Below are positions 3,074 to 34,235 of a stretch of 37,522 bases of DNA, one piece after another. The stretch spans positions 1 to 37,522 of the forward strand of contig NZ_JAHPPD010000016.1 in NCBI RefSeq assembly GCF_019061365.1. Reading direction: 5' to 3'. A model generated the notes under the pieces. That model searched no databases. It saw only the letters and a list, made by a program, of their open reading frames with translations, and was not told where the DNA came from. Every line of letters begins with the position of its first letter. Position 1 is the stretch's first letter. A program made the translations under genes and the position numbers. The stretch comes from Lentilactobacillus dabitei (GTDB taxonomy: Bacteria; Bacillota; Bacilli; Lactobacillales; Lactobacillaceae).

Positions 3074-3144
3074 AACAAAGTCAAGCTGCTCACTTGTGAA
3101 AGTTTAGAGAATATTTGAGAAAAGTTTGAAGAATTTTAAAGTGT

Positions 3145-3252
3145 GCGCAGCAAAGCGGTTAGAAACCGGAGCCTAAGTGTCTTCAATCATAAATCCTGGT
3201 TTTGGATTTTTGGTTGAAGAGGCTTAGGTGCAGGTTTCTGCTTTGCGGAGCA
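3145..3252 (+). repeat. Modular palindromic repeat, copy A
   Basis: Nested arms read, from outside in: GCAAAGC/GCTTTGC, GAAACC/GGTTTC, CCTAAG/CTTAGG, CTTCAA/TTGAAG, AAATCC/GGATTT. The apical loop is TGGTTTT-like. The joints between stems are GGTTA, GGAG and TGCA, the same as in the other copies. It lies between the 5' end of the ATPase gene and the 3' end of the DedA gene, antisense to both. Confidence 0.8.
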
Positions 3253-3268
3253 TGATTCTACTATGTGA

Positions 3269-3306
3269 CATAAGTGCTTATGTGCAGGTTATTGCTTTGC
3301 GGAGCA
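3269..3306 (+). repeat. Truncated copy of the modular palindromic repeat
   Basis: CATAAG-TG-CTTATG is followed by TGCAGG, TTATTGCTTTGC and GGAGCA, which is the right half of the repeat found just upstream. The two inner stems and the left outer arms are missing. It looks like a deletion derivative of a full copy. Confidence 0.6.
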
Positions 3307-3418
3307 CTACTAATCTATCCAACAAGAAACCGCATAACTACAAGTTCCTCCTTTGCACCACAGTCCTAATTTACATAGAAAAGAAACTTCTGCCTTAGAA
3401 TGCCCTGCATCACGCAAC

Positions 3419-3452
3419 AAAAAAGGCCCCCAGGCAATCGCCCACAGGTCCA
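3419..3452 (-). terminator. Terminator of the DedA gene
   Basis: Read on the minus strand, GGACCTGTGGGC, a GATT loop and GCCTGGGGGCCT form a 12-step stem with two mismatches and several G-U pairs. TTTTTTG follows. It begins just after the DedA stop codon. Confidence 0.7.
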
Positions 3453-3455
3453 AAT

Positions 3456-4076
3456 TCACTGTTCATCCCTATTTTTCGTTGAAAATTTATAATAAACGTA
3501 GCAAGCTACAATGACCACCACGACGACCAGAATCACCATCAACCATTGATCTAGTTGCCCAAGCATCTGTTCCCAAGCTTGCCCAGCAAAGTGACCAACG
3601 AGGATTAGCACCGTATTCCAAAGCAATGTCCCAATAATGGTTAAACCACTGAACTTGCCAAACGAATAGCCAGTCATCCCTGCCGGAATTGAAATCAAGC
3701 TCCGGACGACTGGAATGCATCGACCGATTAAAATAGCAACAGCCCCATGCTTGTTGAAATAATGACCGGCTTTCGCAATGTCTGCGGGCTTCAACCGTAA
3801 AATTTTGCCGATTTTCCCAGATACCAGCCGCTCCAGCTGTTCAACACTCAATAATCGGCCAACCCCATATAGGGCGACTGCCCCAAGGTAAGCCCCAGCA
3901 GTTGCTGCCAAAATCGACCCCAAAATGGTCAGCTTACTTGAGATCGTTAAATAACCAGTGAACACCAACACCACTTCAGAAGGGATCGGCGGAAAAATAT
4001 TTTCGAAGGCAATTAGGAACGCAATTCCCCAATAGCCATATTGATTAATTAATTCAGTAATCGTACTCTCGCTCAA
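3456..4076 (-). CDS. DedA/SNARE-associated (VTT domain) membrane protein
   Basis: A 206-residue polytopic membrane protein. The family is linked to membrane homeostasis and to undecaprenyl-phosphate or lipid flipping. Family marks are ENIFPPIPSE near the N terminus and the later stretch GRCIPVVRSLISIPAG, matching the F/R-x3-R-x2-P-x2-G signature. There are four or five hydrophobic segments, and the C terminus is a long helix followed by a short basic tail. The start is a TTG preceded by GAGG; no ATG fits. An extended -10 element lies upstream, divergent from the promoter of the neighbouring aldo/keto reductase gene. It is a single-gene unit closed by a terminator. The exact substrate is unknown. 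Confidence 0.88.
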   Translation of the reverse strand: MSESTITELINQYGYWGIAFLIAFENIFPPIPSEVVLVFTGYLTISSKLTILGSILAATAGAYLGAVALYGVGRLLSVEQLERLVSGKIGKILRLKPADIAKAGHYFNKHGAVAILIGRCIPVVRSLISIPAGMTGYSFGKFSGLTIIGTLLWNTVLILVGHFAGQAWEQMLGQLDQWLMVILVVVVVIVACYVYYKFSTKNRDEQ

Positions 4077-4108
4077 TTAATTTCCTCGCTTCTCATTTTA
4101 GTAAGGCG

Positions 4109-4117
4109 ATTATACCA
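4109..4117 (-). promoter_or_regulatory. Extended -10 promoter element for the DedA gene
   Basis: The minus strand reads TGGTATAAT, a perfect -10 hexamer with the extended TGn motif. It lies about 33 bases upstream of the TTG start. No good -35 hexamer is present at 17 bases, as is usual for extended -10 promoters. Confidence 0.6.
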
Positions 4118-4136
4118 TATTCAAACTTTTCAATCT

Positions 4137-4165
4137 TTGGCATGTTGATTTTAATGGCTTATAAT
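4137..4165 (+). promoter_or_regulatory. Sigma-A promoter of the aldo/keto reductase gene
   Basis: TTGGCA, a 17-base spacer and a perfect TATAAT sit 29 bases upstream of the start codon. Spacing and hexamers are close to the housekeeping consensus. Confidence 0.8.
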
Positions 4166-4193
4166 TGAAGGTAATTAATGAAGGAGGATGGAA

Positions 4194-5147
4194 ATGAAGA
4201 CATTAAAAATTGGTAACACCAACTTCGAAGCATCTGCAGTTGCGTTAGGAATCATGCGGATGGCTGGCATGGATACAAATGCCGCCGCAAAAACGCTGCA
4301 AACTGCTGTGGATACTGGGATTAACTACATTGATTCAGCCGACATCTATGGTGAAGGCGGTTCAGAAAAGAAGTTTAAGGAAGCCTTAAAAGCTTCTGGC
4401 ATTTCTCGGGATAAACTATTTATCCAGTCAAAGGGTGGAATCGTCCTTGATCCCAGCCGCAGCCACGATGGCTTAGTATTCGGGGCTCGCTATGACTTTT
4501 CAAAGCAACACTTAATCGAAGCGGTTGATGGGATTCTGGAACGAATGGGCGTCGATTACCTGGATTCATTCTTGCTCCACCGACCAGATCCATTGATGGA
4601 AGAAGATGAAGTTGCGGACGCCTTTGATACTCTTCAGCGTGAAGGTAAAGTTCGTCACTTTGGGGTTTCCAACTTTGATCCTGAACAAGTCGAAATGGTT
4701 CAATCATGGGTTAACCAACGACTAATCATTAACCAACTGCAATTTAACGTGGTTCATTCCGGCATGATCAAGGCTGGCCTCCATGTTAACAAGGCCGGTG
4801 ATGATAGTAATGATCATAACGATCAAATCATCGAATATTCACGCCGCAAACACATGACTATCCAAGCTTGGTCACCATTTAATTATGGCTTGTTTGATGG
4901 TATGTATATCAATGATCCTAAGTATGGCAAACTAAACGATAAGTTGGCTGAATTAGCTGACAAGTATGGCGTTTCAAAGAATGCCATCGCGGTAGCCTGG
5001 ATTCTCCGTCATCCGGCTCACATTCAAGTATTGTTAGGCACAATGAATCCTGACCATATCAAGGATAGTGCTGCTGGTGCTGATGTCGAATTGACGAAGC
5101 AGGAGTGGTACGATTTGTACTTTGCTGCGGGTAATGACTTGCCTTAA
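4194..5147 (+). CDS. Aldo/keto reductase, YdhF-like
   Basis: A cytosolic NAD(P)H-dependent oxidoreductase of the AKR superfamily, about 317 residues, the usual size for a single TIM barrel. The catalytic tetrad is recognisable: Asp47 in INYIDSADIYG, Tyr52, Lys80 in IQSKGG, and the His of DSFLLHRPDP. GKVRHFGVSNF is the typical AKR strand-loop. Overall resemblance is to Escherichia coli YdhF. I start the gene at the second ATG because GGAGG abuts the first ATG (4188) but stands 6 bases from the second. It is monocistronic: a good promoter lies upstream, and a palindromic repeat with a terminator element lies downstream. The physiological substrate cannot be read from the sequence. Confidence 0.9.
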   Translation: MKTLKIGNTNFEASAVALGIMRMAGMDTNAAAKTLQTAVDTGINYIDSADIYGEGGSEKKFKEALKASGISRDKLFIQSKGGIVLDPSRSHDGLVFGARYDFSKQHLIEAVDGILERMGVDYLDSFLLHRPDPLMEEDEVADAFDTLQREGKVRHFGVSNFDPEQVEMVQSWVNQRLIINQLQFNVVHSGMIKAGLHVNKAGDDSNDHNDQIIEYSRRKHMTIQAWSPFNYGLFDGMYINDPKYGKLNDKLAELADKYGVSKNAIAVAWILRHPAHIQVLLGTMNPDHIKDSAAGADVELTKQEWYDLYFAAGNDLP

Positions 5148-5152
5148 AAAGA

Positions 5153-5267
5153 AGTGAGCGACGAGCAACGGTTTGACGCGGTTATCTAAGGGTCCGCCAA
5201 CTGAAATCCCGGTTTTGGATTTTGGTTGGCGGATTCTTAGATGTTAGCGTCAGTTGCGTCGGAGCGG
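5153..5267 (+). repeat. Modular palindromic repeat, copy B
   Basis: Starts AGTGAGCG six bases after the reductase stop codon, in the sense orientation. Arms are GCAAC/GTTGC, TGACGC/GCGTCA, ATCTAAG/CTTAGAT, CCGCCAAC/GTTGGCGG and AATCC/GGATT, with apical CGGTTTT. Every stem differs from copy A yet remains paired. It is the most diverged of the seven full copies, its GGAG/TGCA joint being replaced by GGTT/GTTA. Confidence 0.72.
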
Positions 5268-5407
5268 TCCTCAACAAGAATATGGAATCGAAGGCTCCAA
5301 CCATTGACCCCGGAACATAACTCAAAACAGCCACTGATAAACGGCTTTGTTTGTCAGTGGCTGTTTTGTGTTATGTGGTAGGGGGCGAACGGTCCTCAAC
5401 AAGAATA
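5265..5407. repeat. 18-base direct repeats flanking a terminator element
   Basis: CGGTCCTCAACAAGAATA occurs at 5265-5282 and again at 5390-5407. Each is followed by a version of CCA(A)TTGACCC. The pair brackets the hairpin element at 5304-5385 and may reflect its insertion or a local duplication. Confidence 0.7.
5304..5385 (-). terminator. Terminator hairpin of the conserved-flank family, copy 1
   Basis: AAAACAGCCACTGA and TCAGTGGCTGTTTT form a perfect 14-bp stem; ACATAA/TTATGT and CCCC/GGGG extend it outside. Read on the minus strand the flanks are CCCCTACCACATAA and TTATGTTCCGGGGTCAA, shared with the copies at 28.6 and 34.2 kb. T-rich stem ends let it terminate on both strands; here it follows the reductase gene. 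Confidence 0.7.
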
Positions 5408-5878
5408 CAACCAATTGACCCTGGAGCAATAATTGATCGTGGTTTAAGTTAGGAAGAAATAATTAAATATTAGAGTATGCCTTAAGATCCTTTAAACAGT
5501 CTACATTAAAAATTTGTTTTTAGTGTACTGTGCACATTTTCCTTGTCAGGAAATAAAGCGACTTGATTTATTTCAAATGATCAATTTAATTCATTTAACA
5601 TATGTTTCTTGTTACTATCATTACTAGGAATTACTAATCTGATTGGTTACTTACTCTTAATTATACAGAACCACTTTTGGATTAATCACATCGTGAATGT
5701 TTTGCAAACTAAACATTTTACCATCACGGGATTCAACAAGAAAAGCCACTTTGAGCACACAAGCGTTCATTAATAAATGATTGCTCAACAAAGAAATGAT
5801 GAATTAGGTTTCTAAAGTTAATTAGATCAGCGCATTCACACAGTATCAAAAAAGCCGCGTTTTACAACAATAAATTTC
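5408..5878. other. AT-rich gene-free stretch
   Basis: About 470 bases without a convincing reading frame, tRNA or repeat. A-rich sequence and scattered short inverted repeats only. It separates the reductase unit from the GyrI-like gene, which ends here. Confidence 0.5.
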
Positions 5879-6334
5879 CTATTCTACTGGGATTAATATT
5901 TCACAGTATCCCATCTTTACTAATTTTTGCTGATACCGTTCAATAATTGGTTTATTGATAGTGCTAAGCCTTTCCTCGCAGATAATCCGTTCCATCTTTT
6001 GATAGAATTCGTTAATTGCTGTTTCAATGTGCGCTATTTGGAAAACAGCATAGTTCCCGGCTGTTAATACTCTTTGTTTGATTCGGTCATTTTTAAAATG
6101 TCCCCTATCGGTAATTAGACAAGTATCATATCTACAGTTAACACTAGAAACATTTTGTGGATTATCCAGAGCTATGCCAAGTATAGTCGATTCTTGAAAT
6201 AGTCGTTCTGATTTAATCCATTGTTTAAATGAATCCATTAACTTTCTATTTTCAACACCATAAGCCCCTATTCGTCTAAAATAAACGACTTTCGTTTCTG
6301 TCATATGTTCAATATTCACTTTTACACACTCCAT
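5879..6334 (-). CDS. GyrI-like small-molecule-binding domain protein
   Basis: Roughly 151 residues resembling the GyrI/SbmC-like fold found as effector domains behind AraC or MerR DNA-binding regions and as stand-alone proteins. The recognisable stretch is VVYFRRIGAYG, the usual R-x-G-x-Y-G start of the domain, followed by a helix (SFKQWIKSERL) and a second half with the YDTCLI strand and a FQIAH strand. No helix-turn-helix is visible, so this is a stand-alone domain or the leftover of a regulator. The start is uncertain: an in-frame TTG at 6418 would add 28 residues that do not resemble the domain, and the ATG at 6334 has no clear ribosome site. The gene is more AT-rich than its neighbours. 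Confidence 0.6.
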   Translation of the reverse strand: MECVKVNIEHMTETKVVYFRRIGAYGVENRKLMDSFKQWIKSERLFQESTILGIALDNPQNVSSVNCRYDTCLITDRGHFKNDRIKQRVLTAGNYAVFQIAHIETAINEFYQKMERIICEERLSTINKPIIERYQQKLVKMGYCEILIPVE

Positions 6335-6418
6335 TGTTGTACTTGGACGTCCTGTGCTAATAGCATAACCCCAGTTAAAATGAAATACACTACCAAGTTT
6401 AAAATAATTTATTGACAA

Positions 6419-6788
6419 TCATATTTCCCGTTTAATAGATCAAGTAAGGAAATTAAAGCGGCGGTTATTTCCGATCAAAAGTGGTGCTTTTAGTGTTAAA
6501 TCTGTAAATCCTATAATTCTCAGCAATCTATATAGCTAATTCAAAGTTCAAGTGCCCCCATTTTAAATTTCAATCAATTAGCTTTGCTATTTGATTGAAA
6601 TTGCATCGAAGTATTTTTTTATCGCAGTATAAAACTAAATATTTTAATTTATTGGATCTCGAGCATAACTCAAAACAGCCACCAGAACTTTAAACTGTTC
6701 ATAAGTGGCTGGTTTGCATTACATGACTGGTTTTCAAATCATTTGTAATTCTTACACATAGCTAGGACAATAGTTTGAGAACTCCCTC
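6419..6788. other. Gene-free stretch with one terminator-like hairpin
   Basis: AT-rich and without a credible frame. It contains CAATCAA-type short inverted repeats around 6570-6600 and the hairpin listed separately at 6663-6717. No sign of an AraC-type helix-turn-helix was found on the minus strand upstream of the GyrI-like gene. Confidence 0.5.
6663..6717 (-). terminator. Terminator hairpin related to the conserved-flank family, degenerate copy
   Basis: The string CATAACTCAAAACAGCCAC is identical to that in the copy at 5.3 kb. AAACAGCCAC and GTGGCTGGTTT pair across a 20-base loop. It lies about 70 bases past the stop codon of the small membrane-protein gene, so it can end that transcript. 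Confidence 0.6.
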
Positions 6789-7154
6789 TCAAATTCCGAC
6801 GAACTTTAGCAGATAAAAGTTAAAAGCCGCCCAAATAACTGAGATAATCAAAATCACAAGAATGACGATACCAGCAATCCATAACCCAGAATGCTTCTCG
6901 GTTGTCCGTTCCCGATCCGGATTATAAGCAGGATTCAAGTTTTCCGCCAATGGATATTTGCGCGATAACCGTGGTTCCATCCACGTCGTCTGAAATACTT
7001 TAATTGCTCCTAACCCAATTGGCCACAAAATTAGCCAACTGATGCCAGCAATCTCTAATATCCTATCACTATCCGTTAATGACACTAGGCTAATCAAGAT
7101 CAACATTAATACTACAAATCCAATAATCAGGCACAAGCGATAAAATTGATGCAT
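6789..7154 (-). CDS. Small membrane protein paired with an XRE regulator
   Basis: 121 residues with three hydrophobic segments (about 5-28, 34-52 and 92-118) and a polar central stretch containing NPAYNPDRERTTEKH. That stretch resembles FNPNRGELSAADERE in the membrane protein at 11.7 kb, which is also next to an XRE gene. The start codon overlaps the regulator's stop (TAATG), which implies translational coupling. Function unknown; a sensor or anti-regulator role for the upstream repressor is only a guess. Confidence 0.75.
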   Translation of the reverse strand: MHQFYRLCLIIGFVVLMLILISLVSLTDSDRILEIAGISWLILWPIGLGAIKVFQTTWMEPRLSRKYPLAENLNPAYNPDRERTTEKHSGLWIAGIVILVILIISVIWAAFNFYLLKFVGI

Positions 7155-7420
7155 TACCAGCCATGTGTGGGTTTGGTCAGCCTTCTGTTTGTCAAATATC
7201 TTAATTGTTCACCCTTATCCGAGTCTGATATCGTTTCAAATAAATCACCAATTTGAACACCCAATGCATTAGCAACCAAACGTAACGTTTCTAAACTGGC
7301 ATCTTCCCCAGCTTCTAGGCGTTGAATTGTTCTGGGATTAACCTGGCTCACTTCTGCTAAATGTTCTTGAGTCCAACCATGCTGTTTTCGTAAATATGCA
7401 ATTTTGTTATTAGTCATCAT
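7154..7420 (-). CDS. XRE-family transcriptional regulator
   Basis: 88 residues holding one HTH_3 domain from residue 6 to 62: IAYLRKQHGWTQEHLAEVSQ followed by VNPRTIQRLEAGEDASLETL, the standard five-helix Cro/CI pattern. It is probably the repressor of its own two-gene unit, since a perfect inverted repeat lies about 70 bases upstream. Either of two adjacent ATGs may start it. A strong AAGGAGGA lies about 45 bases upstream with no start codon at the right distance, so the ribosome site actually used is unclear. Confidence 0.82.
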   Translation of the reverse strand: MMTNNKIAYLRKQHGWTQEHLAEVSQVNPRTIQRLEAGEDASLETLRLVANALGVQIGDLFETISDSDKGEQLRYLTNRRLTKPTHGW

Positions 7421-7486
7421 TTTGATTTCAGAATGGTTTTTCGGCTAGCTCGATCTACCGTTCTGTTCCTCCTTACTATTGGTTTT

Positions 7487-7502
7487 GAATCATTCATGAT
7501 TC
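7487..7502. promoter_or_regulatory. Operator-like inverted repeat upstream of the XRE gene
   Basis: GAATCATTCATGATTC is a perfect 7-bp inverted repeat with a 2-base centre. On the minus strand it lies just downstream of TGGTATGAT (an extended -10 candidate) and upstream of the XRE start, a typical place for autorepression. Confidence 0.5.
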
Positions 7503-7701
7503 ACTTAAACCATAGTGTACTTGGTAAAATCATACCACGACAGCGTCACGACAATAACCCGACAGTTGGCAACTCAAGATGAGGACAGCTAAATCCACTC
7601 AAACGTTAGAGGTTCGCGAACCATTTTAACGATGGTTATTTTGATTTATTATGAGTGCAGTTTCCGCGATTTAACCTTTGATCAACGACTTCGTATAACT
7701 T

Positions 7702-7756
7702 AATAAGGCCATCCGATTGAAATTCTGAGAATGAATTCCGATCAGATGGCCTTATT
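7702..7756 (-). terminator. Terminator of the PnuC/glycosidase unit
   Basis: AATAAGGCCATC and GATGGCCTTATT form a perfect 12-bp stem, with GAATT-rich inner pairing. It starts 12 bases past the glycosidase stop. The U-tract is short. Confidence 0.65.
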
Positions 7757-7767
7757 AATTAATCACT

Positions 7768-23321: not shown

Positions 23322-24255
23322 CTCGTTTCCTCCCCTCAACGAATTTGATTTCAATGAATAATAGAATCAAGAAGATCACAAAGGTCACGGTTGCCAATGC
23401 GGACGCGTTCCCGGTTTTGTAAAGGACAAACGCATTGAGGTACGTGTGATACAGCAAGTTAGACGACCCATAGTAGGGGCCACCTTGCGTGATGACGTTG
23501 ATTGGCGTAAAGACATACTGCAACCCTTGAACGATTGTCAAAATGAAGACATAGATTGCCACGCCTTTATTCAGTGGCAGCACAATGTTCCAAATGACCC
23601 GCAACTTGGGAATCCCATCCAAAGCGGCGGCATCAAGAATGTTGCGCGGGACGGCTCCTAAACCGGTGAGCAGTAAAATGAAATTATAACCAAACACTTT
23701 CCAATTGGTAATCAGACAAATCACGACAATTGCCATGGCACCGGAATTGGTCCATTGAGGCACTTTCATGCCAAAATCCCTGAGGAAGAGTGCCAGTGGG
23801 CCAGAAACGGGATTCAAAATCCATGAGAACAACATCGCGCCAACCACTAACGAGAACAAGCTGGGAATGAAGAACAGGATTTTGTAAGGCCCCTTCATTT
23901 TGCCAATGAAGAAATTGACAATTAGCGAAATGAAATATGGAATGATAAAGTTTAAAATCACCAATAGGACAATGTAGACGAGCGTATTTAAAATCACTTT
24001 CTGGTTCGTTGGGTCGGTGAAGACATTGACGTAATTTGCCAAGCCGACAAACTGCTTAGTTGGGGCAATCAGGTTCCAATTAAAGAAGCTCAGGTAAAAT
24101 GTATAGCCAATTGGAACGATCATGAACACCAGTAATAACAGTGCCGATGGTAGTAGGTATAGAAATGGCAAAAGCCGTCCTCGCGGCTTGCGGGAAACCC
24201 GCGGGCCAGAACGACTGTTAACAGCCTTTTCAATTTGTGAATTATTGTTGAGCAT
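23311..24255 (-). CDS. ugpA: Glycerol-3-phosphate ABC transporter permease
   Basis: 314 residues, six membrane helices after a basic cytosolic N terminus (SRSGPRVSRKPRG), MalF/UgpA type. Its EAA loop reads DAAALDGIPKLRVIWNIVLP. I place the start at 24255, where AGGAGAAG gives a ribosome site; the reading frame continues upstream to 24294 inside ugpB without one. It overlaps the ugpB stop by 14 bases. Confidence 0.87.
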   Translation of the reverse strand: MLNNNSQIEKAVNSRSGPRVSRKPRGRLLPFLYLLPSALLLLVFMIVPIGYTFYLSFFNWNLIAPTKQFVGLANYVNVFTDPTNQKVILNTLVYIVLLVILNFIIPYFISLIVNFFIGKMKGPYKILFFIPSLFSLVVGAMLFSWILNPVSGPLALFLRDFGMKVPQWTNSGAMAIVVICLITNWKVFGYNFILLLTGLGAVPRNILDAAALDGIPKLRVIWNIVLPLNKGVAIYVFILTIVQGLQYVFTPINVITQGGPYYGSSNLLYHTYLNAFVLYKTGNASALATVTFVIFLILLFIEIKFVEGRKRDAD

Positions 24256-25524
24256 TAATCTTCTCCTGTGCAGCCTTGAGTGTCTGGGCAACATTGCTGC
24301 CGGTTAAAATCTTGTCCCGGGCATCAATCATGTCCTGTTCAGCATCTAACCCATTTTTAGGGAATGATGTCCAAGGAACGGCGTTGGTCAATTCTTGGGT
24401 AGCTGGTTTAATCATTGGGTTGGCAGCCAAGTACTTCTTAAATTGAGCTGAATCTAAGGCAGTCTTTGTTGGTGGCAAGTATCCAGTTCCCTTGTCCCAA
24501 GTTAACAGTGAATCATTTTTATAGAGCCACTTTTCAAAGGTCCAAGCCGCTTTTTGCTTGGCACTGTCCTGAGAAGTGAGGGCTAACATTGACCCACCAA
24601 CTGGAACCGTCAGCTTATTGCCCTTAAAGGTTGGGGCAATTTGTGAGGAAGCCTTGAAGCTGACACTTTGTTTAATGTGTGAGGCTTGAGCAACGGTTGT
24701 GAACGCCATGGCCACTTTGCCATTGGTGAAATCGTCCATCCCTTGTGCCCAAGGCGTATGAATCGCGGCTTTATCCTTTAAAACCATGTCCTGTATAGTT
24801 GATAAGCTTTGACACCCTGAGCACTGGCAAACGCTGCTTTACCGGCCGAATTTTTAATTTGCGCACCATTGCTTAACATCATTGCTTGTTGCGCCCAGGT
24901 ATCAGCGGGTTCTTGAATATAGACGCCATAGTTGCCGCTCTTTTGCTTGATGGTCTTGGCAGCTGCTTGGACGCCTTCCCAAGTACTCAAGCTGCTCTTT
25001 TTAATCCCATATTTAGCAAGCATACTGTCATTGGTAAACAGAATTGGCGTACTCAATGAGTATGGCAACCCGACTAACTTACCTTTGGCGTTTTTAGCGA
25101 AGGATAACGACTGGGTCGAAAAGTTATTCGTAATGGCACTCTTGCTCTTGTCAAATTTTTGAGCTGCGTCAGTTGGCGTCATGTACTTGAAATTGTCAGA
25201 GAAGTAGTTCGTGAATGCCCAACCAACCTGAACGATATCCGGCACTTTTCCAGATGCCTGAGCGGATTGTAAATTCTGCATCAATCCTTGATACATATTT
25301 GGATTGTATTTAGCAGTTACCTTGATGTGCTTGTGGGTCTTGTTAAACTCTTTAACGAGCTTATTAACAGATGTCCCACCCTGTGTTTCAGCGTTAACGT
25401 GCCAATATGTAATGTGCGTTGTTTTGGTTGCCGCAGACTTGGAACACCCCGCAAACAATAACGCAACCCCGACAATTGACAAAAGACCGATTACTCGTTT
25501 TAAACCGTGACTAATAGTCATCAT
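24242..25524 (-). pseudogene. ugpB: Glycerol-3-phosphate-binding lipoprotein gene with a frameshift
   Basis: Encodes the solute-binding lipoprotein of the ugp importer. The 5' part (to 24778) starts with a lipoprotein signal, LFAGC with Cys27, followed by ITYWHVNAETQGG and the rest of lobe one. It ends abruptly at KAYQLYRTWF. The 3' part (from 24787) continues in another frame with DMVLKDKAAIHTPWAQGM and the C-terminal lobe. Restoring one base near 24789-24794 would give LYQDMVLKD, so a single-base deletion is the simplest explanation. The operon downstream is intact. It is either a recent mutation or a sequencing error. AGGAGGG precedes the start and lies at the edge of the tandem repeats. 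Confidence 0.85.
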
Positions 25525-25542
25525 GAAACCCTCCTAAAATAA

Positions 25543-25654
25543 GTGAGCGGAGTAAAGCGGTTAGAAACCGGAGCGTAAGTCGCTGCTGAGAGGAATTCCT
25601 GGTTTTGGAATTTTTCTCAGTGGTGCTTACGTGCAGGTTTCTGCTTTACGCAGC
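25543..25654 (+). repeat. Modular palindromic repeat, copy D (tandem 1)
   Basis: GTAAAGC-GGTTA-GAAACC-GGAG-CGTAAG-TCGCT-CTGAGA, then AATTCC, loop TGGTTTT, GGAATT, TCTCAG, GGTG-CTTACG-TGCA-GGTTTC-T-GCTTTAC. First of three tandem units. It begins about 20 bases upstream of the ugpB start on the opposite strand, right next to the ugpB ribosome site. Confidence 0.85.
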
Positions 25655-25667
25655 TGTCTAAAAGTAA

Positions 25668-25782
25668 GTGAGCGGAGTAAAGCGGTTAACAATCGGAATG
25701 TAAGTCGCCTTGGGGAGAAATTCCCGGTCTTGGAATTTTTCGCTAAGGTGCTTACATGCAGATTGTTGCTTTACGCAGCTGT
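25668..25782 (+). repeat. Modular palindromic repeat, copy E (tandem 2)
   Basis: Exactly 125 bases after copy D begins. Outer stem GTAAAGC/GCTTTAC is unchanged, but the second stem is ACAATC/GATTGT, the third TGTAAG/CTTACA, and the fourth uses TTGG/CTAA with a G-U pair. Joints GGTTA, TCGC, GGTG and TGCA are kept. Confidence 0.85.
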
Positions 25783-25792
25783 CCTAAAATAA

Positions 25793-25907
25793 GTGAGCAG
25801 ATCCAAGCGTTTAGGGATCGGAGGGTAAGTCGCCTGGAACGAAAATTCCGGGTTTGGGAATTTTTGTTCGAGGTGCTTACATGCAGATCCCTGCTTGGAG
25901 CAGCTGT
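25793..25907 (+). repeat. Modular palindromic repeat, copy F (tandem 3)
   Basis: Again 125 bases after the preceding start. Outer stem is now TCCAAGC/GCTTGGA, second stem GGGATC/GATCCC, third GTAAG/CTTAC, fourth GAAC/GTTC, fifth AAAATTCC/GGGAATTTTT. The units are joined by a constant GCTGTCCTAAAATAAGTGAG string. Confidence 0.85.
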
Positions 25908-26076
25908 CCTATTTACGATGTACTTATAGATTAACAAGGTGATGTAAATTGAAGGCAAAAATTATGTTTCAAAAGTGTAAAAAGTCATGACATTTTGGTG
26001 GGTGTTGGATACCCCAGTTGGTTATGAACCCTGTATTGTGTCCCTTACACACAATTTCATTTTAAAAAAGCCAAAG
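25908..26076. other. Probable promoter region of the ugp operon
   Basis: About 170 bases between the tandem repeats and the dacA-side terminator, with no gene. On the minus strand it contains TTTACA and GAAACA words spaced as in PHO-type boxes, and ATTGTGT/ACACAAT forms an inverted repeat at 26034-26056. No promoter could be fixed with confidence. If transcription starts here, the three repeats lie in the ugp 5' leader. Confidence 0.3.
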
Positions 26077-26118
26077 AAAAACGGGTAACCATTCGGATTG
26101 GAATAGTTACCCGTTTTG
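26077..26118. terminator. Terminator hairpin between dacA and the ugp operon
   Basis: AAAACGGGTAAC and GTTACCCGTTTT are perfect 12-base complements with a 16-base loop. TTTTG follows on the plus strand and A/U-rich sequence on the minus. It closes the dacA transcript. Confidence 0.75.
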
Positions 26119-26202
26119 TTTGGACCTGCCTAGCTTAAGTTGGTTCGACGCTCATAATCTTTTGATAATCAGCAGAAACTTCATTCAGTAATCTTTAAGA
26201 CC

Positions 26203-26262
26203 GGTAGCTCCTGTGATCGGATCAGGCATCCCAATTGGCCCCTATGATCCGATCCAACTACC
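26203..26262. repeat. Inverted repeat spanning the dacA stop codon
   Basis: GGTAG...GATCGGATCA and TGATCCGATC...CTACC pair. The inner 10 bases are perfect, and the CTACC arm contains the dacA stop codon. It may protect the mRNA end or slow termination; it lacks a U-tract. Confidence 0.5.
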
Positions 26263-27565
26263 GAGCCATAAACTTAGCAAAATTCACCATCAGCTTATAA
26301 ATCCCCGTAAAAATACCAATCAACATATTGCCAATCGAGCTTAACAGTGAGTGGTGATGCGTCTTTTTTGCTTGTTTTGCCTGCTGATTTGGTTTAATCG
26401 TCGCTTCAGCAATCATTGGCACCTTTGCCACCCCACGACTATTAGAAAGTCCCACCTCCGCATAGCCAACAGAGTCGCCTTTGGTCACTTGCCCGGTCTT
26501 TTGGGTCAAACGATACTTAACTGATTGGGGCTTTTGGTTGGCATTCTGGCGCCAAATGGCGGTTTGTGATTCTTGTGGCGTTGCCGTTAGCAATTGATTG
26601 CCGATCTTAAATTGATGGGCTTTCACGTTCACACTCACCTTTTGATACTTTTTATCAATCTGTTGAATCAATCGATCCATCGACGTGAATACCGAATTAC
26701 TATCGATAATGGTGGCAATCAAATGACGGCCATTGTGCCAAAAAGTAACCGTGAGACAGAGACCGGCATTAATTGTATAGCCGGTCTTCAACCCATCAAC
26801 GTGATTCGCTTTTCGGTAATAAACTTTGTTCTTCAACAAGCTGTTGGAGTTAACTAACCATTGTTTACCAACCTTCATCGTCGACTGACTACTCCACTTG
26901 GTAATCGTCGGGAATTCGGCGAGCACTTTAGCCGCCACTTGAGAAATGGCAGAAGCGCTGACCATGTTTTGGGCTTTGCTGGTCGTATGAGGTACCTGAT
27001 AATGATATTTCTTCAAATCGGTGTTATCGAGGCCAGAGCTGCTAACAAAGGTTGCCTCAATTCCCCATTTTTGAGCTTGCTGGTTCATCATGTAAATAAA
27101 TTGGGTGTTATTGCCACCACCCACTAATTTTCCGAGGGCAATCGCGGCAGAATTCGAAGAAGCGATCAGGGCGGCTTTGTATAAATCCTTAACGGTAAAT
27201 TCGCCAGAGCGCTTAATTCTAAATCCCCCTAAAGTGGGATCCTTACTCATTTTGATTAATTCTTCGTCAACGGGTACTTTCTGATCCCATTTGATCTTAT
27301 GCGCATCAATCGCTTTCTTGGTCAAATAGAGGGTCATTAATTTTGACAAACTGGCGATCGGCCGCTTGGCATCGGCGTTTTTCTGATACAGCACTTGACC
27401 GGTCTTGGCATCCATGACATAAGCTTCCTTAGCCTGAAATGCCGGCAATTTTTTCGCACGGGCTGAAGGTGTCGCAGTCGTTGAGAAAGCAATGATGGCA
27501 GCCATCACTATAACGACAATTTGTAAAAATGGGCTTTGTTTAACTTTCGAGGTGGCTTTCCGCAA
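26258..27565 (-). CDS. dacA: D-alanyl-D-alanine carboxypeptidase (PBP5-like)
   Basis: 435 residues. Trims the terminal D-Ala of peptidoglycan pentapeptides at the outer membrane face. A signal sequence (hydrophobic 15-30, ARA-K) is followed by the penicillin-binding motifs SLSK (72-75), SSN (136-138) and KTG (260-262), then a PBP5 C-terminal beta domain and a final amphipathic helix (GIYKLMVNFAKFM) for membrane anchoring. The start is a TTG with TAGGAGG 8 bases before it. The expected motif order and spacing are intact. It is a single-gene unit; the glycosyltransferase gene upstream on the same strand is about 180 bases away. Confidence 0.93.
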   Translation of the reverse strand: MRKATSKVKQSPFLQIVVIVMAAIIAFSTTATPSARAKKLPAFQAKEAYVMDAKTGQVLYQKNADAKRPIASLSKLMTLYLTKKAIDAHKIKWDQKVPVDEELIKMSKDPTLGGFRIKRSGEFTVKDLYKAALIASSNSAAIALGKLVGGGNNTQFIYMMNQQAQKWGIEATFVSSSGLDNTDLKKYHYQVPHTTSKAQNMVSASAISQVAAKVLAEFPTITKWSSQSTMKVGKQWLVNSNSLLKNKVYYRKANHVDGLKTGYTINAGLCLTVTFWHNGRHLIATIIDSNSVFTSMDRLIQQIDKKYQKVSVNVKAHQFKIGNQLLTATPQESQTAIWRQNANQKPQSVKYRLTQKTGQVTKGDSVGYAEVGLSNSRGVAKVPMIAEATIKPNQQAKQAKKTHHHSLLSSIGNMLIGIFTGIYKLMVNFAKFMAR

Positions 27566-27742
27566 ACCAGGTACCTCCTAAATTTCTAAATTACAGATGG
27601 CACTATCCTAACTTAAATTTTAAGATTTGGAAAATCAAATTGAGAATCTTTAAATAAAATTTACCCAGAAAAGCCAAATGTGGTATTTAATAGCGCCAGC
27701 ATTTTCTCGCAAGCTAACGACGATCCTGTTCCGCTCACTTTT

Positions 27743-28483
27743 TTAAGGTTGCAGATGACGGCTCATTTCATCGATATGCTGCCGAACCACCTGTTCCTTT
27801 CGCCTCATCCCCATTGTCGCAGAGTGGATAATGCTGTTACCCCGACTCACTTTGGTGTATAACGGCGCTGCATAATAGACGAACCGATGAGAGGCGGCAA
27901 TGTAATCCGCCGTAAACAGGAGATCTTCAGCCAGCTCTAAGGTTTCATCGAACCGAATCTGATGGTCACGAATCACCGAAAGCCTAAACCCTTTATTCCA
28001 AGTATATCCACCAATTTCGGCGCCGCGATAATTAATTGAATCAAATGCTTCTTGCTTTGAAACGGATTGGAATTTGGCATCGGCAGACAACCTGCCACCG
28101 CCACGCCATCCCCAGGCGTACCCAACTGCGGCCATATCAACAGCCTTATCTGCCAATCCGGCAACAATGACTTCAAGATAATTTGAAGCCAGTAGATCAT
28201 CGCCGTCAACAAACACAATAATTTCCCCATTGGCATGATCAATCGCATAATTGCGAGCCTTCGAGACCCCTTCATGCTCATCATAATAATAAGGATGAAT
28301 TCGCTCATCCTGCTTGGCAAGCTCAGAAATTGCGGTCGCAGTGTCATCGGTTGACGCATCATCAACTAAAATAATTTCAAAATTCTGATAGGTCTGATTA
28401 AAAATACTCTGCATCGTTTTCTTTAAATAAGATCCCAAATTGTAAGCTGGAATCGAAATGGTGACTAACGGAGAATTTGTCAT
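27743..28483 (-). CDS. Family 2 glycosyltransferase
   Basis: 246 residues with a GT-A fold. Transfers a sugar from a nucleotide donor. ISIPAYNLGSYL opens the domain; ILVDDASTDDT holds the first Asp pair and VFVDGDDLLA the DxD-type metal site. AEDLLF is the usual ED acid motif, followed by a Y-rich acceptor region. No membrane helix is seen, so it is cytosolic or peripheral. The start is at 28483, with GGAGG 8 bases upstream; the longer frame to 28498 includes that site. Likely decorates teichoic acid or an exopolysaccharide, but no polysaccharide cluster surrounds it. Confidence 0.88.
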   Translation of the reverse strand: MTNSPLVTISIPAYNLGSYLKKTMQSIFNQTYQNFEIILVDDASTDDTATAISELAKQDERIHPYYYDEHEGVSKARNYAIDHANGEIIVFVDGDDLLASNYLEVIVAGLADKAVDMAAVGYAWGWRGGGRLSADAKFQSVSKQEAFDSINYRGAEIGGYTWNKGFRLSVIRDHQIRFDETLELAEDLLFTADYIAASHRFVYYAAPLYTKVSRGNSIIHSATMGMRRKEQVVRQHIDEMSRHLQP

Positions 28484-28640
28484 GGTAACCGCCTCCACTT
28501 ATTTTTGGTCAGTGTAAGCGGTTGGGAAGGAATGTGCAAGGATTTGAGCGTCATCGCATATGGCGAATATTCGAAGCACGCAGTTGCCTCAATCGGAGAG
28601 TCTGGCATTTGCAATTTAAATTGACGAAATGTGCTCTCGC
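28484..28640. other. Intergenic region upstream of the glycosyltransferase gene
   Basis: No gene. It carries the presumed glycosyltransferase promoter on the minus strand. Part of the flank (GAAATGTGCTCT) recurs beside the hairpin element at 34.2 kb. Confidence 0.4.
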
Positions 28641-28645
28641 GGACC

Positions 28646-28730
28646 TAACCCTACTACATAAAAAAGAGCCCCAACGATAAACAAAGAACGTTCATCATTG
28701 GAGCTCATATCTTATTCTCCGGATCAACCC
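28646..28730 (-). terminator. Terminator of the ara operon, conserved-flank family copy
   Basis: On the minus strand GAGCTCCAATGAT pairs with GTCGTTGGGGCTC-type sequence (G-U allowed) and TTTTTTAT follows. Plus-strand flanks CCCTACTACATAA and TTATTCTCCGGATCAA resemble those of the copies at 5.3 and 34.2 kb. It lies about 95 bases after the araD stop. Confidence 0.78.
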
Positions 28731-28802
28731 GGACTTAGTAGAAAGCGTGCCTCAGGGAACTGGCCCTTATATTACCGCGCCAAAAACGTTCCTTTCAGCA
28801 CT

Positions 28803-29531
28803 CTATTCGTGTTCTGCGTGACTCTTAGATTTGGCATTATTTTGACCATAGTAAGCATTCTTACCATGCTTACGATAGTAATGCTTATCCAACAGATATT
28901 GTGGCACATGGGTTTCGTCACGAGTTAATTGTAATGTGTGATAGCTAATTTCAGCTGAAACTTCAAGTACCTTAGCGTTATAAACCGCTTTGTCGGCAGT
29001 TGGGCCCCATGCAAATGGACCATGTTGGCTAACTAGAACTGCAGGAACAGCATCTGGGTCAATTCCGCGGCGTTCAAATTCGTCAACGATCACTTTACCG
29101 GTGTTCAACTCATAGGCTTCTTCGATTTGTTTTTTCGTCAAAGCTGGGGCACAAGGAACATCACCGTAGAATGTGTCGGCATGAGTCGTGCTAGTAGCTG
29201 GGATATCCATCTTAGCTGCGGCAAATGAAACAGCCCAAGGTGAATGAGTATGAACAATACCACCAATGGTTGGGAAATGATTATAGAGATAAGTATGAGT
29301 TGGTGTATCGCTTGAAGGATTCAAGTCACCTTCAACAACCTTACCATCCAAATCAACAACGACCATATCTGAAGGCTTCATATCTTCGTAAGGAACCCCT
29401 GATGGCTTGATAACGAATAAGCCTTTGTCACGGTCAATTGCTGAAACATTTCCCCAAGTGAAGGTTACCAAGTCCAACTTAGGAAGTTTCATGTTTGCTT
29501 CATATACTTCTTGTTTAAGATCTTCTAGCAT
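28803..29531 (-). CDS. araD: L-ribulose-5-phosphate 4-epimerase
   Basis: 242 residues, class II aldolase-like zinc enzyme that turns L-ribulose 5-phosphate into D-xylulose 5-phosphate, feeding the phosphoketolase pathway. Visible marks are LVTFTWGNVSAIDRD, KPSGVPYEDM, the zinc histidines in GGIVHTHSPWAVS and the later SQHGPFAWG. Start placed at 29531: AAAGGTGA lies 8 bases before this ATG, and the upstream in-frame GTG lies inside that site. It is the second gene of the operon, separated from araB by a palindromic repeat. No araA follows. Confidence 0.93.
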   Translation of the reverse strand: MLEDLKQEVYEANMKLPKLDLVTFTWGNVSAIDRDKGLFVIKPSGVPYEDMKPSDMVVVDLDGKVVEGDLNPSSDTPTHTYLYNHFPTIGGIVHTHSPWAVSFAAAKMDIPATSTTHADTFYGDVPCAPALTKKQIEEAYELNTGKVIVDEFERRGIDPDAVPAVLVSQHGPFAWGPTADKAVYNAKVLEVSAEISYHTLQLTRDETHVPQYLLDKHYYRKHGKNAYYGQNNAKSKSHAEHE

Positions 29532-29591
29532 TTTGTTTATCACCTTTCGTGTTTGTGGTTTTAAGATTGTGGTTGTTCTTGGTTATATGGA

Positions 29592-29710
29592 GTAGGACAG
29601 CTCCGCAAAGCAATAACCTGCACATAAGCACCACAACCAAAAATCCAAGCCCAGGATTTCTGGTTGCGGAGACTTATGTTCCGGTTATTAACCGCTTTGC
29701 TTCGCTCACT
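29592..29710 (-). repeat. Modular palindromic repeat, copy G, inside the ara operon
   Basis: Minus-strand reading: GCAAAGC-GGTTA-ATAACC-GGAA-CATAAG-TCTCC, GCAACCA, AAATCC, loop TGGGCTT, GGATTT, TGGTTGT, GGTG-CTTATG-TGCA-GGTTAT-T-GCTTTGC. The araB stop codon overlaps the repeat's AGTGAG edge (TAGTGAG). The other edge TAGGACAGCT matches the tandem copies at 25.6 kb. It is in the sense direction, about 60 bases before araD. Confidence 0.85.
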
Positions 29711-31316
29711 ACTTCATTTTCATCGACTTAACCGCTTGCTCCTCAACCGGAAGGGCTGCCTTGTAGTTGTCGATGAACTTGTCATAACCTTGGACACTGG
29801 CTGGTTCTGGGTACAACGTTGCTTTGGTTGAATCTTTGAAGACACGGTTCTCCAAGTAGTCTTCCAATGCTTCGCCGTCTTTACGGTTAACACAGTAGAG
29901 TGCCAAGACTGCCATTCCCCAAGGACCACCCTCACCGGCATTTTCCATTACAGAAATTGGGGTGTTCAGGGCATCCGCCAGAACTTGTTGGGCAACAACC
30001 GGCGTCTTGAAAATACCACCTTGGGCAACCAGTACACTGGTCTTGATATGTTCTTCGCGAAGCAAGATATCCATCCCAATCTTTAATGGGGCAAAGGCTG
30101 AATAAATTTGTTGCTTGATGAAGTTAGCGAGGTTCAACTTGCTGTCTGGCTTACGGACAAATAATGGTCGGCCTTCTGGCATCCGGGTGATGTTTTCACC
30201 TGAAAGGTAAGCAAAGTTAACCAAGCCACCGGCATCTTGATCACCCTTAACTGATTCGGCGAACAAAGTCCCGTACAAATCATCAGGCTTGAGTTGCAAT
30301 CCAAGTGCTTTGGCAAATTCACCAAACAAGCCTACCCAAGCGTTGATATCGGATGAACTGTTGTTGGTGTGAACCATGGCAACTGGTGCACCATCTGGGG
30401 TTGTCACCATATCAATATCACGATGAACAGCCTTCATAGGCCGATCCAAGACAACCATTGAGAATGCAGAAGTTCCGGCTGAAATATTTCCAGTCCGCTT
30501 CTTAACACTGTTGGTTGAAACCATCCCAGTACCAGCATCCCCTTCAGGAGGCGCAATCAATGAACCGCCTTGGAGTTCACCACTCTGGTCAAGCAATTTG
30601 GCACCGGCATCCGTCAGCTCACCGACTTTTTGACCAGCCGGGAGGACCTTAGGCAAAATGTCGGTAATCTTCCATGGGTATTTCTGAACTTCAGGAAGAG
30701 CACTGAACTTATCCAGCATCTCTTGATTGTAGCTAACCGTCTGTTCGTCAATTGGAAACATTCCAGAGGCATCCCCAACACCAAGTGCCCTCTCACCGGA
30801 CAACTTCCAAGTAACGTAACCAGCAAGTGTTGTAAAGAAATCAACGTTCTTAACATGGTCTTCGTTATTCAAAATTGCTTGGTATAAATGAGCAATACTC
30901 CAACGTTCTGGAATATTGAAATCAAACAACTTGGTCAAAGCTTCCGCAGCCTGGCCGGTAATGTTATTCCGCCAAGTTCTAAAGGGTACTAACAACTCGT
31001 CATTCTTATCAAATGCCATATAACCGTGCATCATGGCACTGACACCGATTGACCCGATCTTCTGAAGATCGCAACCATACTTATCATGAACTTCCAATGC
31101 CAAAGTTGCATAACTGGTTTGGATACCATCCCAAATCTTGTCTATTGGATAAGTCCAAATGCCGTTATCCAATTCGTTTTCCCAAAGGTAATCGCCAGAA
31201 GCAATTGTTTGGAAATCATCTGTCACCAGGACGGCCTTGATTCTTGTAGAACCTAATTCGAGACCCAGCGAAATGTTTCCGCTTACAATTTCGTCTCGCA
31301 CACGACTTTCATCCAT
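29709..31316 (-). CDS. araB: L-ribulokinase (FGGY family)
   Basis: 535 residues. Phosphorylates L-ribulose with ATP, the step before AraD. The sugar-kinase actin fold shows ISLGLELGSTRIKAVL (phosphate loop 1), GVSAMMHGYMAFD, the second phosphate loop GNISAGTSAFSMVV, and the adenosine motif GGIFKTPVVAQ with GEGGPWGMAVLA. The lactobacillar AraB type is recognisable by the long WENELDNGIWTYP segment. GGAGG lies 8 bases before the ATG. Transcribed from a strong promoter with an AraR-like operator. Operonic with araD. Confidence 0.93.
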   Translation of the reverse strand: MDESRVRDEIVSGNISLGLELGSTRIKAVLVTDDFQTIASGDYLWENELDNGIWTYPIDKIWDGIQTSYATLALEVHDKYGCDLQKIGSIGVSAMMHGYMAFDKNDELLVPFRTWRNNITGQAAEALTKLFDFNIPERWSIAHLYQAILNNEDHVKNVDFFTTLAGYVTWKLSGERALGVGDASGMFPIDEQTVSYNQEMLDKFSALPEVQKYPWKITDILPKVLPAGQKVGELTDAGAKLLDQSGELQGGSLIAPPEGDAGTGMVSTNSVKKRTGNISAGTSAFSMVVLDRPMKAVHRDIDMVTTPDGAPVAMVHTNNSSSDINAWVGLFGEFAKALGLQLKPDDLYGTLFAESVKGDQDAGGLVNFAYLSGENITRMPEGRPLFVRKPDSKLNLANFIKQQIYSAFAPLKIGMDILLREEHIKTSVLVAQGGIFKTPVVAQQVLADALNTPISVMENAGEGGPWGMAVLALYCVNRKDGEALEDYLENRVFKDSTKATLYPEPASVQGYDKFIDNYKAALPVEEQAVKSMKMK

Positions 31317-33239: not shown

Positions 33240-33854
33240 GTGGTCATTATTATCAAAAAGAGTTTACTTACATTATCAGTTATCACTGGTTTCTTAGGTC
33301 TTAGTGGCGTTGTCGCAAATGCCGACAGCTATACCGTTAAGTCCGGAGATACCGTTGCCAACATTGCTGATAAATTTAACGACACTGTTAATGGAATTGC
33401 AAAACGCAACAACCTTTCTGATGCTGATTTAATCATGGTAGGCCAAAAGCTCAAAGTTAGCAACAATGATAAAGCTTCAAAGACCAACATGAAGACTTCA
33501 ACTGCTATTCACAATGAACATAAGGATGCAATCGTAGCTGATACAGCTTCAAATTCCAATAACAATTCAGATACTTCAACTGACGCAACCAGCAGCGCAA
33601 CAATCACCCCGGCTGCATTCCAATCACAAGGGGTTGTTTACCAAAATGGTAAGAAATGGACCTATTACACCGGTGCAGCATTCGCCGATGGTACCACTAA
33701 TCACGGTGGTTATGATGCAGACGGCTACTTAATTGTAGCAGCTCCTGCAGACGTTCCATTTGGCACTCACGTTCAAACGCCACTTGGTGAAGGCGTTGTC
33801 CATGATCGTGGAACAGCGATTGTCGGTAATCATTATGACTTGGTAATGCCATAG
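33240..33854 (+). CDS. Secreted LysM peptidoglycan-binding protein
   Basis: 204 residues. A signal peptide (KKSLLTLSVITGFLGLSG, cleavage after ANA) precedes one LysM domain (SYTVKSGDTVANIADKF to QKLKVSN), which binds GlcNAc chains. A Ser/Thr/Asn/Asp linker follows, then a small barrel with AAPADVPFGTHVQTPLGEGVVHDRGTAI, resembling the 3D/RlpA-like double-psi domain. Such proteins are abundant secreted lactobacillar wall proteins. The start is unusual: AAAGGTGG stands 8 bases before ATC-AAA-AAG where ATG-AAA-AAG would be expected; the only standard candidate, a GTG at 33240, lies inside that ribosome site. It ends YDLVMP, close to the usual end of the domain. Confidence 0.85.
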   Translation: MVIIIKKSLLTLSVITGFLGLSGVVANADSYTVKSGDTVANIADKFNDTVNGIAKRNNLSDADLIMVGQKLKVSNNDKASKTNMKTSTAIHNEHKDAIVADTASNSNNNSDTSTDATSSATITPAAFQSQGVVYQNGKKWTYYTGAAFADGTTNHGGYDADGYLIVAAPADVPFGTHVQTPLGEGVVHDRGTAIVGNHYDLVMP

Positions 33855-33861
33855 AGACTGG

Positions 33862-33975
33862 GGCAATAGGCGTTTTGATCCCAGAATTTAACGAAATGAC
33901 CAATTATTCCTGATTTTGGAATAGTTGGTCATTTTTGTTAAATTCTGGGATCAGCCGTTTGGCGCAGCTTTTATC
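33862..33975 (+). terminator. Terminator-like nested hairpin after the LysM gene
   Basis: GATCCCAGAATTTAAC/GTTAAATTCTGGGATC, TGACCAA/TTGGTCA and TTCC/GGAA pair in series, with apical TGATTTT. TTTTTG lies inside. The outer ends (GGCGTTTT, GTTTGGCGCAGC) recall the modular palindromic family, of which it may be a distant member. Confidence 0.6.
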
Positions 33976-34230: not shown

Positions 34231-34235
34231 TCTGA

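Follow-up and report, generated by a model that had tools for sequence, protein, structure and literature searches.

Hairpin units in an L. dabitei contig

Contig NZ_JAHPPD010000016.1 of Lentilactobacillus dabitei (assembly GCF_019061365.1), whose 37,522 nucleotides are here called the window, carries a family of palindromic units of about 115 nt that fold into one elaborate hairpin. A sequence-only reading of the window had listed seven copies with a common plan, and all seven were recovered where it placed them; the boundaries given here are those of a covariance model (CM) built from these copies, and each assignment rests on fold and CM match. A full unit of subfamily B, running from AGTGTGCG to GAGCATGATTCT, lies at 3139..3259 (+). 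The unit at 5152..5273 (+), which begins ACGAGCAACGGTTTGACGC and belongs to a diverged subfamily, starts 4 nt past the stop codon of an aldo/keto reductase gene (4188-5147) and keeps the plan, as had been remarked, but with altered sequence. A second subfamily B unit (13128..13251, -) lies 6 nt past the stop codon of an SDR gene (13258-14031, -). Three further units form a tandem array at 25541..25662, 25666..25787 and 25791..25912 (all +), with TCCTA at the 5′ junction (25532..25536, +) and again at the 3′ junction, where it is the end of unit 3 (25907..25911, +); the 5′ TCCTA overlaps CCTCCT (25530-25535), the Shine-Dalgarno complement of gene 24778-25524 (-). The seventh unit, at 29592..29711 (-) with the tail TCCATATAACC, makes with its first bases the TAG stop codon of an FGGY kinase gene (29709-31316, -).

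The seven copies fold alike, with some variation among them, and for each of the seven the folding energy is better than that of all 200 dinucleotide shuffles (z -7.1 to -11.3). From the base upward, the plan consists of a foot, a 3x3 loop of GGA opposite GGA, stem 1 (7 bp), a 4-nt GGTT bulge, stem 2 (about 7 bp), a 3x3 loop of GGA opposite GCA, stem 3 with TAAG/CTTA, a T bulge with a T.T or G.T mismatch, and a long stem 4 closed by a 7-nt loop. The fixed joints described earlier were thus real, while their exact layout needed four corrections from the folds: the supposed GGTTA opposite T is the GGTT bulge opposite nothing, GGAG opposite TGCA is the GGA/GCA loop, TCGC opposite GGTG is the T bulge plus mismatch, and the GGA/GGA loop below stem 1 had been missed. 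The joint pattern GGTTA-N6-GGA-N3-TAAG, allowing at most one mismatch, occurs seven times in the window against 0.10 expected, in six of the listed copies (all except the one at 5.2 kb) and in a palindrome at 34.2 kb.

Copy number and spread

The covariance model, which the sequence-only reading had proposed building, finds at least 150 units in the L. dabitei genome: all 150 scored candidates match at E below 1e-25, a lower bound because scoring covered 150 of 781 first-look candidates. A strict half-site pattern has 97 matches in this genome and its reversed control has none. Model matches occur in 17 of 31 genomes (the source, 18 of the genus and 12 of the order), with three genomes of the genus (G001, G002 and G017) giving none. 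Extending the proposed search across Lactobacillaceae, with 11 candidates scored per genome under strict filters, yielded matches at E <= 1e-8 in 102 of 301 genomes and 22 of 40 genera.

A short-pattern scan of named genomes returned at least 87 stretches; among the matches listed, 72 of 80 fall in L. rapi (G016), L. kisonensis (G004) or L. fungorum (G013), and the remaining 8, single matches in unrelated taxa, are taken as chance for a pattern this short. L. rapi is the nearest relative of the source genome among those compared, with long matches of 91-95% identity in window 22.0-32.5 kb and of 75-91% in 0-19.9 kb. The distribution of units along the L. rapi genome looks uneven: the first 160 kb of contig C12 (L202-L209) hold one weak unit (L203) at E <= 1e-15, and other L. 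rapi stretches, picked for holding units, carry many.

Plasmids of L. paracasei and L. rhamnosus carry copies that share about 86% identity with a unit from genome G080, so G080 is probably a Lacticaseibacillus; Pediococcus plasmid copies are equally similar to this unit, and we therefore call the genome Lacticaseibacillus-like. Of another unit, near-identical copies are present on 77 plasmids, 16 of them from Listeria. In the two plasmid records inspected (L031:5001-5121 and L339:3001-3136) they adjoin a copper repressor gene (copY), and we therefore read the plasmid copies as hitch-hikers, not as independent spread. With one unit as query, 50,697 phage records gave no match. Three viral contigs (L363, L364 and L365) match the short half-site pattern, perhaps by chance at such a pattern length. 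Rfam likewise returned no match in the window (the array came closest, at E 0.34, with scores well short of the gathering thresholds), and no description of the hairpin family was found in the open-licence literature, an older account in a subscription journal being possible; the earlier statement that no named family fits is borne out to that extent. One table row of PMC2267715 names L. johnsonii.

Paired arms change together

To measure covariation we aligned the 150 best L. dabitei units (149 distinct) over 43 pairs. Paired cells make up 95.9% of 6392, against 81.3% in shuffled and 36-48% in slid alignments, two-sided change is seen in 32 of the 43 pairs, and double-change cells number 988 versus 284, with none of 500 shuffles reaching any of five measures; as the model structure guided the fitting of the large alignments, pair counts lean towards it. 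The same behavior was found in alignment A6, whose 28 units are mostly of Lentilactobacillus, with two other genera contributing 6 and plasmids 3 (96.2% paired, 77.5% shuffled; 31 of 43 pairs two-sided), and in alignment A7, with 75 units from G080 (97.5% paired, 88.7% shuffled; 28 of 43). The claim that pairing is kept as the sequence diverges is therefore upheld, by compensatory change across most pairs.

Since the alignment had been fitted to the model, we also measured linkage, as normalised mutual information among 52 variable columns. Partner columns score 0.74 (18 pairs), non-partners 1-2 nt apart 0.17, and columns at all greater distances 0.07-0.10, even though tightly linked partners sit up to about 110 columns apart. 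Such weak neighbor and tight partner linkage looks like the outcome of long pair-by-pair evolution. Exchange of whole stems is insufficient on its own, because it would link neighboring columns. At the level of arms, the two arms of one stem score 0.59-0.78 and arms of different stems 0.11-0.52; from this partial linkage, blocks appear also to have been inherited or exchanged together.

One strand folds around nearly fixed joints

A G.T pair on one strand is A.C on the other, so mismatches report on the strand that folds. Among non-Watson-Crick cells of the 150 units, G.T outnumbers A.C by 462 to 51, where column independence would give 796 and 421, and the excess persists with G.T-rich pairs left out (156 versus 49). 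We therefore take the AGTGAGC strand to be the folding form, as RNA or single-stranded DNA. The sequence-only reading had offered three options, a cruciform, a folded RNA and a mobile element requiring the shape; a symmetric cruciform is disfavored by this one-sided mark.

Mean heterozygosity is lowest in the joints (0.115), followed by stems (0.262), the apical loop (0.365) and the inner stem (0.538). Each base of AGTG is kept in 146-150 of 150 units and the second-loop GGA in 146-148, and a G.T pair between columns 57 and 84 is present in 120 of 150. That unpaired joints are conserved thus holds for most bases, which are nearly fixed, and fails for the middle bases of two internal loops: in the first 3x3 loop they are G in 114 and 95 of 150 units, and the C of GCA is kept in 112. 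The second G of GGTT is kept in 123, and bases flanking the variable joint positions in 136-149 of 150.

Units often abut gene boundaries

Units in the L. dabitei genome group into 95 arrays, 60 single and 35 multiple. With genes called as longest open reading frames (ORFs), by no trained gene finder, the 5′ end of an array faces the start of an antisense gene in 51 cases, the stop of a sense gene in 38 and neither in 6. The start codon is at most 24 nt away in 30 of the 51 antisense arrays, 25 of the 38 sense arrays begin at -6..+7 of the stop codon, and 3′ ends fall within 24 nt of a gene end in 10 of 89. Anti-Shine-Dalgarno motifs occur within 25 nt of 34 of 83 L. dabitei 5′ ends, compared with 3 of 83 3′ ends. 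The sequence TCCT stands before 61 of the 63 internal units; the figures are 22 of 30 for antisense placement and 12 of 32 for units placed otherwise, where chance would give 7.5%. The unpaired GGA of the hairpin is complementary to the TCC of the insertion site and could, from this fit of letters, serve as a guide.

Sense arrays tend to carry a tail TCTATRTARCC at their end, and a looser version of this tail follows 15 of 25 sense arrays, 8 of 40 others and 4 of 30 antisense arrays, just one of these four seeming genuine. The tail sometimes precedes a truncated right half of another unit (window 3260-3310; L070, L091 and L123); in the window, this half lies at 3272..3306 (+), after the tail ACTATGTGAC.

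Placement in G080, where genes were likewise called as longest ORFs, differs in part. A start codon is found at 24 nt or less from 9 of 27 antisense arrays, and all 14 sense arrays keep at least 40 nt from any stop codon. In G080, 11 of 42 arrays come after a TTTTT run no more than 14 nt away, versus 2 of 83 in L. dabitei, and these runs often appear to be those of terminators; several G080 sense arrays (L342-L360) begin immediately behind such a run and not behind a stop codon. The 5′ end of the unit often abuts a gene boundary, though no single target rule emerged.

Empty sites and turnover of units

Comparison with relatives shows that units come and go. We matched 47 of the 95 L. dabitei arrays to a relative stretch, some of them through a neighboring unit and not a unique flank (e.g. 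L101:1850 and L092:1969), and three clean empty sites are among these. L. rapi lacks the 25.5-kb three-unit array: its matches to window 22000-25536 and 25907-28600 abut, overlapping by the 5-bp TCCTA that is single in L. rapi and present at both ends of the array in L. dabitei. The two units at L080:13501-13745 are absent from L. rapi and L. fungorum, with one unit present in L. kisonensis, and L. rapi has no unit at L121:1542.

A crude count of start motifs gives different unit numbers at 14 of 32 compared sites. Units at the same site in different species are often roughly 70-85% alike, no closer than unrelated family members, within flanks mostly about 90-97% identical; a few are 93-99% identical. 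In the window, the L. rapi counterpart of the unit at 5152..5273 has the same outer stem and a different inner stem, and that of the unit at 13128..13251 likewise keeps the outer stem with different inner stems. The unit at 29592..29711 has a 97% identical copy in L. rapi, and no unit stands at its place in G011, G012, G015 and G018, four genomes of the genus at greater distance.

Arrays are rearranged unit by unit. At L095, unit 1 of L. dabitei corresponds to unit 2 of the relative and unit 2 to unit 1. At L107/L217 and L089/L226 the species differ cleanly by one unit, and the additional unit sits between TCCTA and whatever sequence follows. Start-to-start spacing is 122-127 bp for 54 of 57 neighbors in L. 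dabitei, 65 of 67 in L. rapi and 29 of 32 in G080, and some neighbors are identical (L089 units 1 and 2, 100%). On account of the empty sites and this turnover of arrays, a mobile element that needs its shape fits best among the three options offered earlier.

A proposed route of mobility

Overall, these units are probably non-autonomous mobile hairpins of roughly 115-125 bp, moved in trans as a folded single strand. We propose that the strand AGTGAGC...GTCCTAA folds into the long hairpin, whose foot would bring the two ends together, and that a trans-acting cutting-and-joining enzyme would recognise a unit by its folded shape and unpaired joints and not by its stem sequence, with the joints as contacts, and would cut, move or copy the unit. 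Insertion would set the 5′ end against a boundary: pyrimidine-rich Shine-Dalgarno complements, positions just after stop codons and, in the Lacticaseibacillus-like genome, also terminator T-runs. Insertion next to the 3′ end of an existing unit would build arrays of ~125-bp period, so that an array may grow because a unit's own end is a place of insertion. Copies mutated out of the fold would cease to multiply, and the shape would thereby be kept while the stems drift pair by pair. Conversion, template switching and tandem duplication probably act on units as well; alone, they leave the fixed joints and the weak neighbor linkage unexplained.

Several observations weigh against this proposal. 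The lean of the pair counts towards the model, the partial linkage between stems and the variable middle bases of the loops have been given above. In G080 the G.T excess (270 versus 37 overall) is confined to a few fixed positions, and outside these it is gone (48 versus 37). TCCT precedes 1 of 25 sense-placed units after stop codons, and G080 units end differently, with CGCGTTATG; for these two reasons no single target rule can be drawn. For 13 of the 95 arrays the overlap with a called ORF exceeds one half; we presume these ORFs to be spurious. At two of the three empty sites a TCCTA duplication is unclear. To these are added the constraint in place, which is mild but not nil, the even strand orientation in G080 and the enzyme searches, all described below.

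Constraint on units that stay in place

The point at which selection acts was examined with 15 one-to-one orthologous units at the same site, at least 94% identical, which together hold 62 changes. Pair-breaking changes number 18 where neutrality predicts 27.3 (P 0.0085), and pair-keeping single changes 21 where it predicts 14.1 (P 0.03); joints hold 6 changes (10.6 predicted, P 0.07), and there is 1 double change (0.7 predicted). When the comparison is loosened to the 23 best matches with at least 90% identity, 9 double changes appear, mainly in less similar and possibly non-orthologous pairs. Constraint in place is therefore mild, not nil, and from this mildness the fold would probably be selected mostly at copying.

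These data bear most directly on the alternative that the units are functional host RNAs, transcribed within 3′ untranslated regions, binding a protein through their internal loops and protecting or processing mRNAs, with selection on each copy. The one-strand G.T asymmetry fits an RNA, as do the sense arrays that begin at a stop codon (25 of 38), the shift in place from pair-breaking to pair-keeping changes and the one copy that is 97% identical in L. rapi. However, the 51 of 95 arrays whose 5′ end faces an antisense gene would often put the folding strand outside the mRNA of that gene. Unit number and identity also vary between close species at the same site, double compensations show no excess in place, and three genomes of the genus (G001, G002 and G017) have no match at all. 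The mild constraint on resident units further weakens this explanation, which we regard as unlikely.

Search for a mobilising enzyme

Protein-profile searches covered 21 genomes, including 13 of the genus with at least 27 units, here called element-rich, and 6 with at most 2. Y1_Tnp (PF01797) matches were found in 6 of the 21, and the five among these with unit scores all belong to the element-rich group. In eight of the 13, including G003, G004, G006 and G013, no Y1_Tnp match turned up; draft assemblies could hide a Y1 gene, but G006 is assembled in 2 contigs. The 0 of 6 among genomes with at most 2 units, set against 5 of 13, has a one-sided chance of about 0.11 (by hand). The L. dabitei genome holds three C-terminal fragments of Y1 transposases (33-39 aa) at the ends of contigs C216, C166 and C213, which are probably repeats broken by assembly. 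As miniature IS200/IS605 elements insert with a lagging-strand bias, we compared array orientation in the two halves of G080, using 150 scored units, the first frame as DnaA (by eye) and a terminus assumed half-way; 25+/30- and 35+/28- arrays gave no bias (P 0.36).

These results speak to the alternative that the units are elements of the REP or IS200 type moved by a Y1 transposase (RAYT or TnpA). It accounts for the hairpin, for TCCT-adjacent insertion in two placement classes and for intergenic dispersal, and it draws on the confinement of Y1 matches to element-bearing genomes and on the fragments in L. dabitei. The eight element-rich genomes without a match, among them G006, and the unbiased strand orientation in G080 count against it. 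Judged by presence, a Y1 enzyme is not needed, since most element-rich genomes have no match, and it is not cleared either, because its matches are confined to genomes that bear the element; as mobiliser it is unsupported, and we consider this explanation quite unlikely.

Two other enzymes found no support as mobilisers. RVT_1 is present in 8 of 21 genomes, in 5 of 13 element-rich ones and in 3 of 6 with at most 2 units, and is missing from 8 of the 13 (including G004, G005, G006 and G013), so a reverse transcriptase, as of a group II intron or another retroelement, is unsupported; by Pfam, both a Y1 (IS200/RAYT) transposase and a reverse transcriptase are lacking in two of the genomes with the most units. 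None of the 21 genomes has an integron integrase over the TIGR02249 cut-off. Matches below the cut-off, to tyrosine recombinases, occur in 20 of 21 genomes and in all 14 controls, and host recombinases may on this account be considered candidate mobilisers.

Mutational and transpositional alternatives

Pairing might instead be kept by mutation, if template switching or mismatch repair of an extruded hairpin used one arm as the pattern for rewriting its partner. The L. rapi copy at the site of the unit at 3139..3259 looks like such an event: compared by eye, its 27-nt inner arms are exactly complementary and the joints are lost, as template switching would give. As a general account this is very unlikely, because such correction should erase mismatches and bulges, yet most joints are near-invariant and a specific G.T pair is kept in 120 of 150 units, and because tract-wise rewriting would link neighbors, whose linkage at 1-2 nt is just 0.17. 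An ordinary miniature inverted-repeat element (MITE) of a DDE transposase, its terminal repeats forming the whole element and its copies shuffled by homologous recombination, is highly improbable: it could point to TCCTA at both junctions of the 25.5-kb array and to the tandem duplication shown by the identical neighbors at L089, but rather than a random target duplication TCCTA is a flank that recurs and also how the unit itself ends, and MITE arms are not expected to covary pairwise around fixed joints.

Relation to known hairpin systems

The mobile hairpins proposed here have relatives in design. REP elements are described as 20-40 bp palindromes with a GTAG or CGTC tag (PMC3733652), and REP/REPIN-RAYT systems share with our units, in the accounts given, high-copy clustered intergenic palindromes, the lack of a gene of their own and a proposed single-strand folding (PMC3116915, PMC3733652). 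In contrast, the present units are ~115 nt long, start AGTG[AT]GC or AGAGCGC without a GTAG/CGTC tag, keep a multi-joint fold with pair-wise covariation, and abound also in the eight genomes with no Y1_Tnp match. Integron attC sites are reported to be recognised as folded single strands, with little sequence conservation and important unpaired bases (PMC2727003). Our units, with their conserved bulges and one-strand fold, may be comparable in this respect, and their arrays share the gain, loss and reordering of units (as in the L095 swap). They differ in the absence of integrase matches over the cut-off in the 21 genomes, in that the hairpin itself is the unit with no gene cassette, and in genome-wide dispersal.

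Miniature IS200/IS605 elements present a hairpin substrate and insert 3′ of one fixed tetra- or pentanucleotide with lagging-strand orientation bias. Our units have the hairpin, and the TCCT before some placement classes may be such a short fixed sequence; they differ in the lack of Y1 matches in eight of 13 element-rich genomes and of strand bias in G080. BOX, RUP and SPRITE elements of streptococci and other MITEs are likewise scattered between the genes of Gram-positive bacteria as repeats of roughly 100 bp; by their description they are set apart from a family with per-pair covariation around fixed joints, spread over 22 of 40 genera of one bacterial family. We conclude, with some reserve, that the present family is a mobile bacterial palindrome that somewhat resembles attC and REP in its working but lacks defining features of both. 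A tentative further possibility is a new mechanistic class in Lactobacillaceae: gene-less hairpin cassettes whose sole heritable identity would lie in a folded single strand and its fixed joints, with an enzyme other than a Y1 transposase, an integron integrase or a reverse transcriptase adding and removing single units in arrays. In such a class the stem sequence would be free to turn over and the shape would be inherited.

If the units do move as folded strands, an industrially important bacterial family harbors a repeat family held together by shape, not sequence, and numerous enough to influence promoters, operons and intergenic regions. The natural collection of compensated variants of a single hairpin, well over a hundred in number, would make the recognition rules readable and the mobilising enzyme searchable, and rapid turnover at fixed loci would be relevant to strain typing and genome engineering of lactobacilli.

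Related palindromes in the window

Two palindromes that the sequence-only reading had not listed, at 33854..33973 (+) and 34221..34347 (-), follow the same plan with altered sequence. The first matches the model more weakly (61.8 bits), and the second, which begins GGTTTGACCCCGGAACGTAAG, scores 68.9 bits. A third palindrome, with GACCCCGGAACATAA..GTTATGTGGTAGGGG at 5271..5400 (+), is by eye like the 34.2-kb type minus the outer stem. The same plan in such different sequence suggests that these three palindromes belong, with the units, to a wider superfamily.

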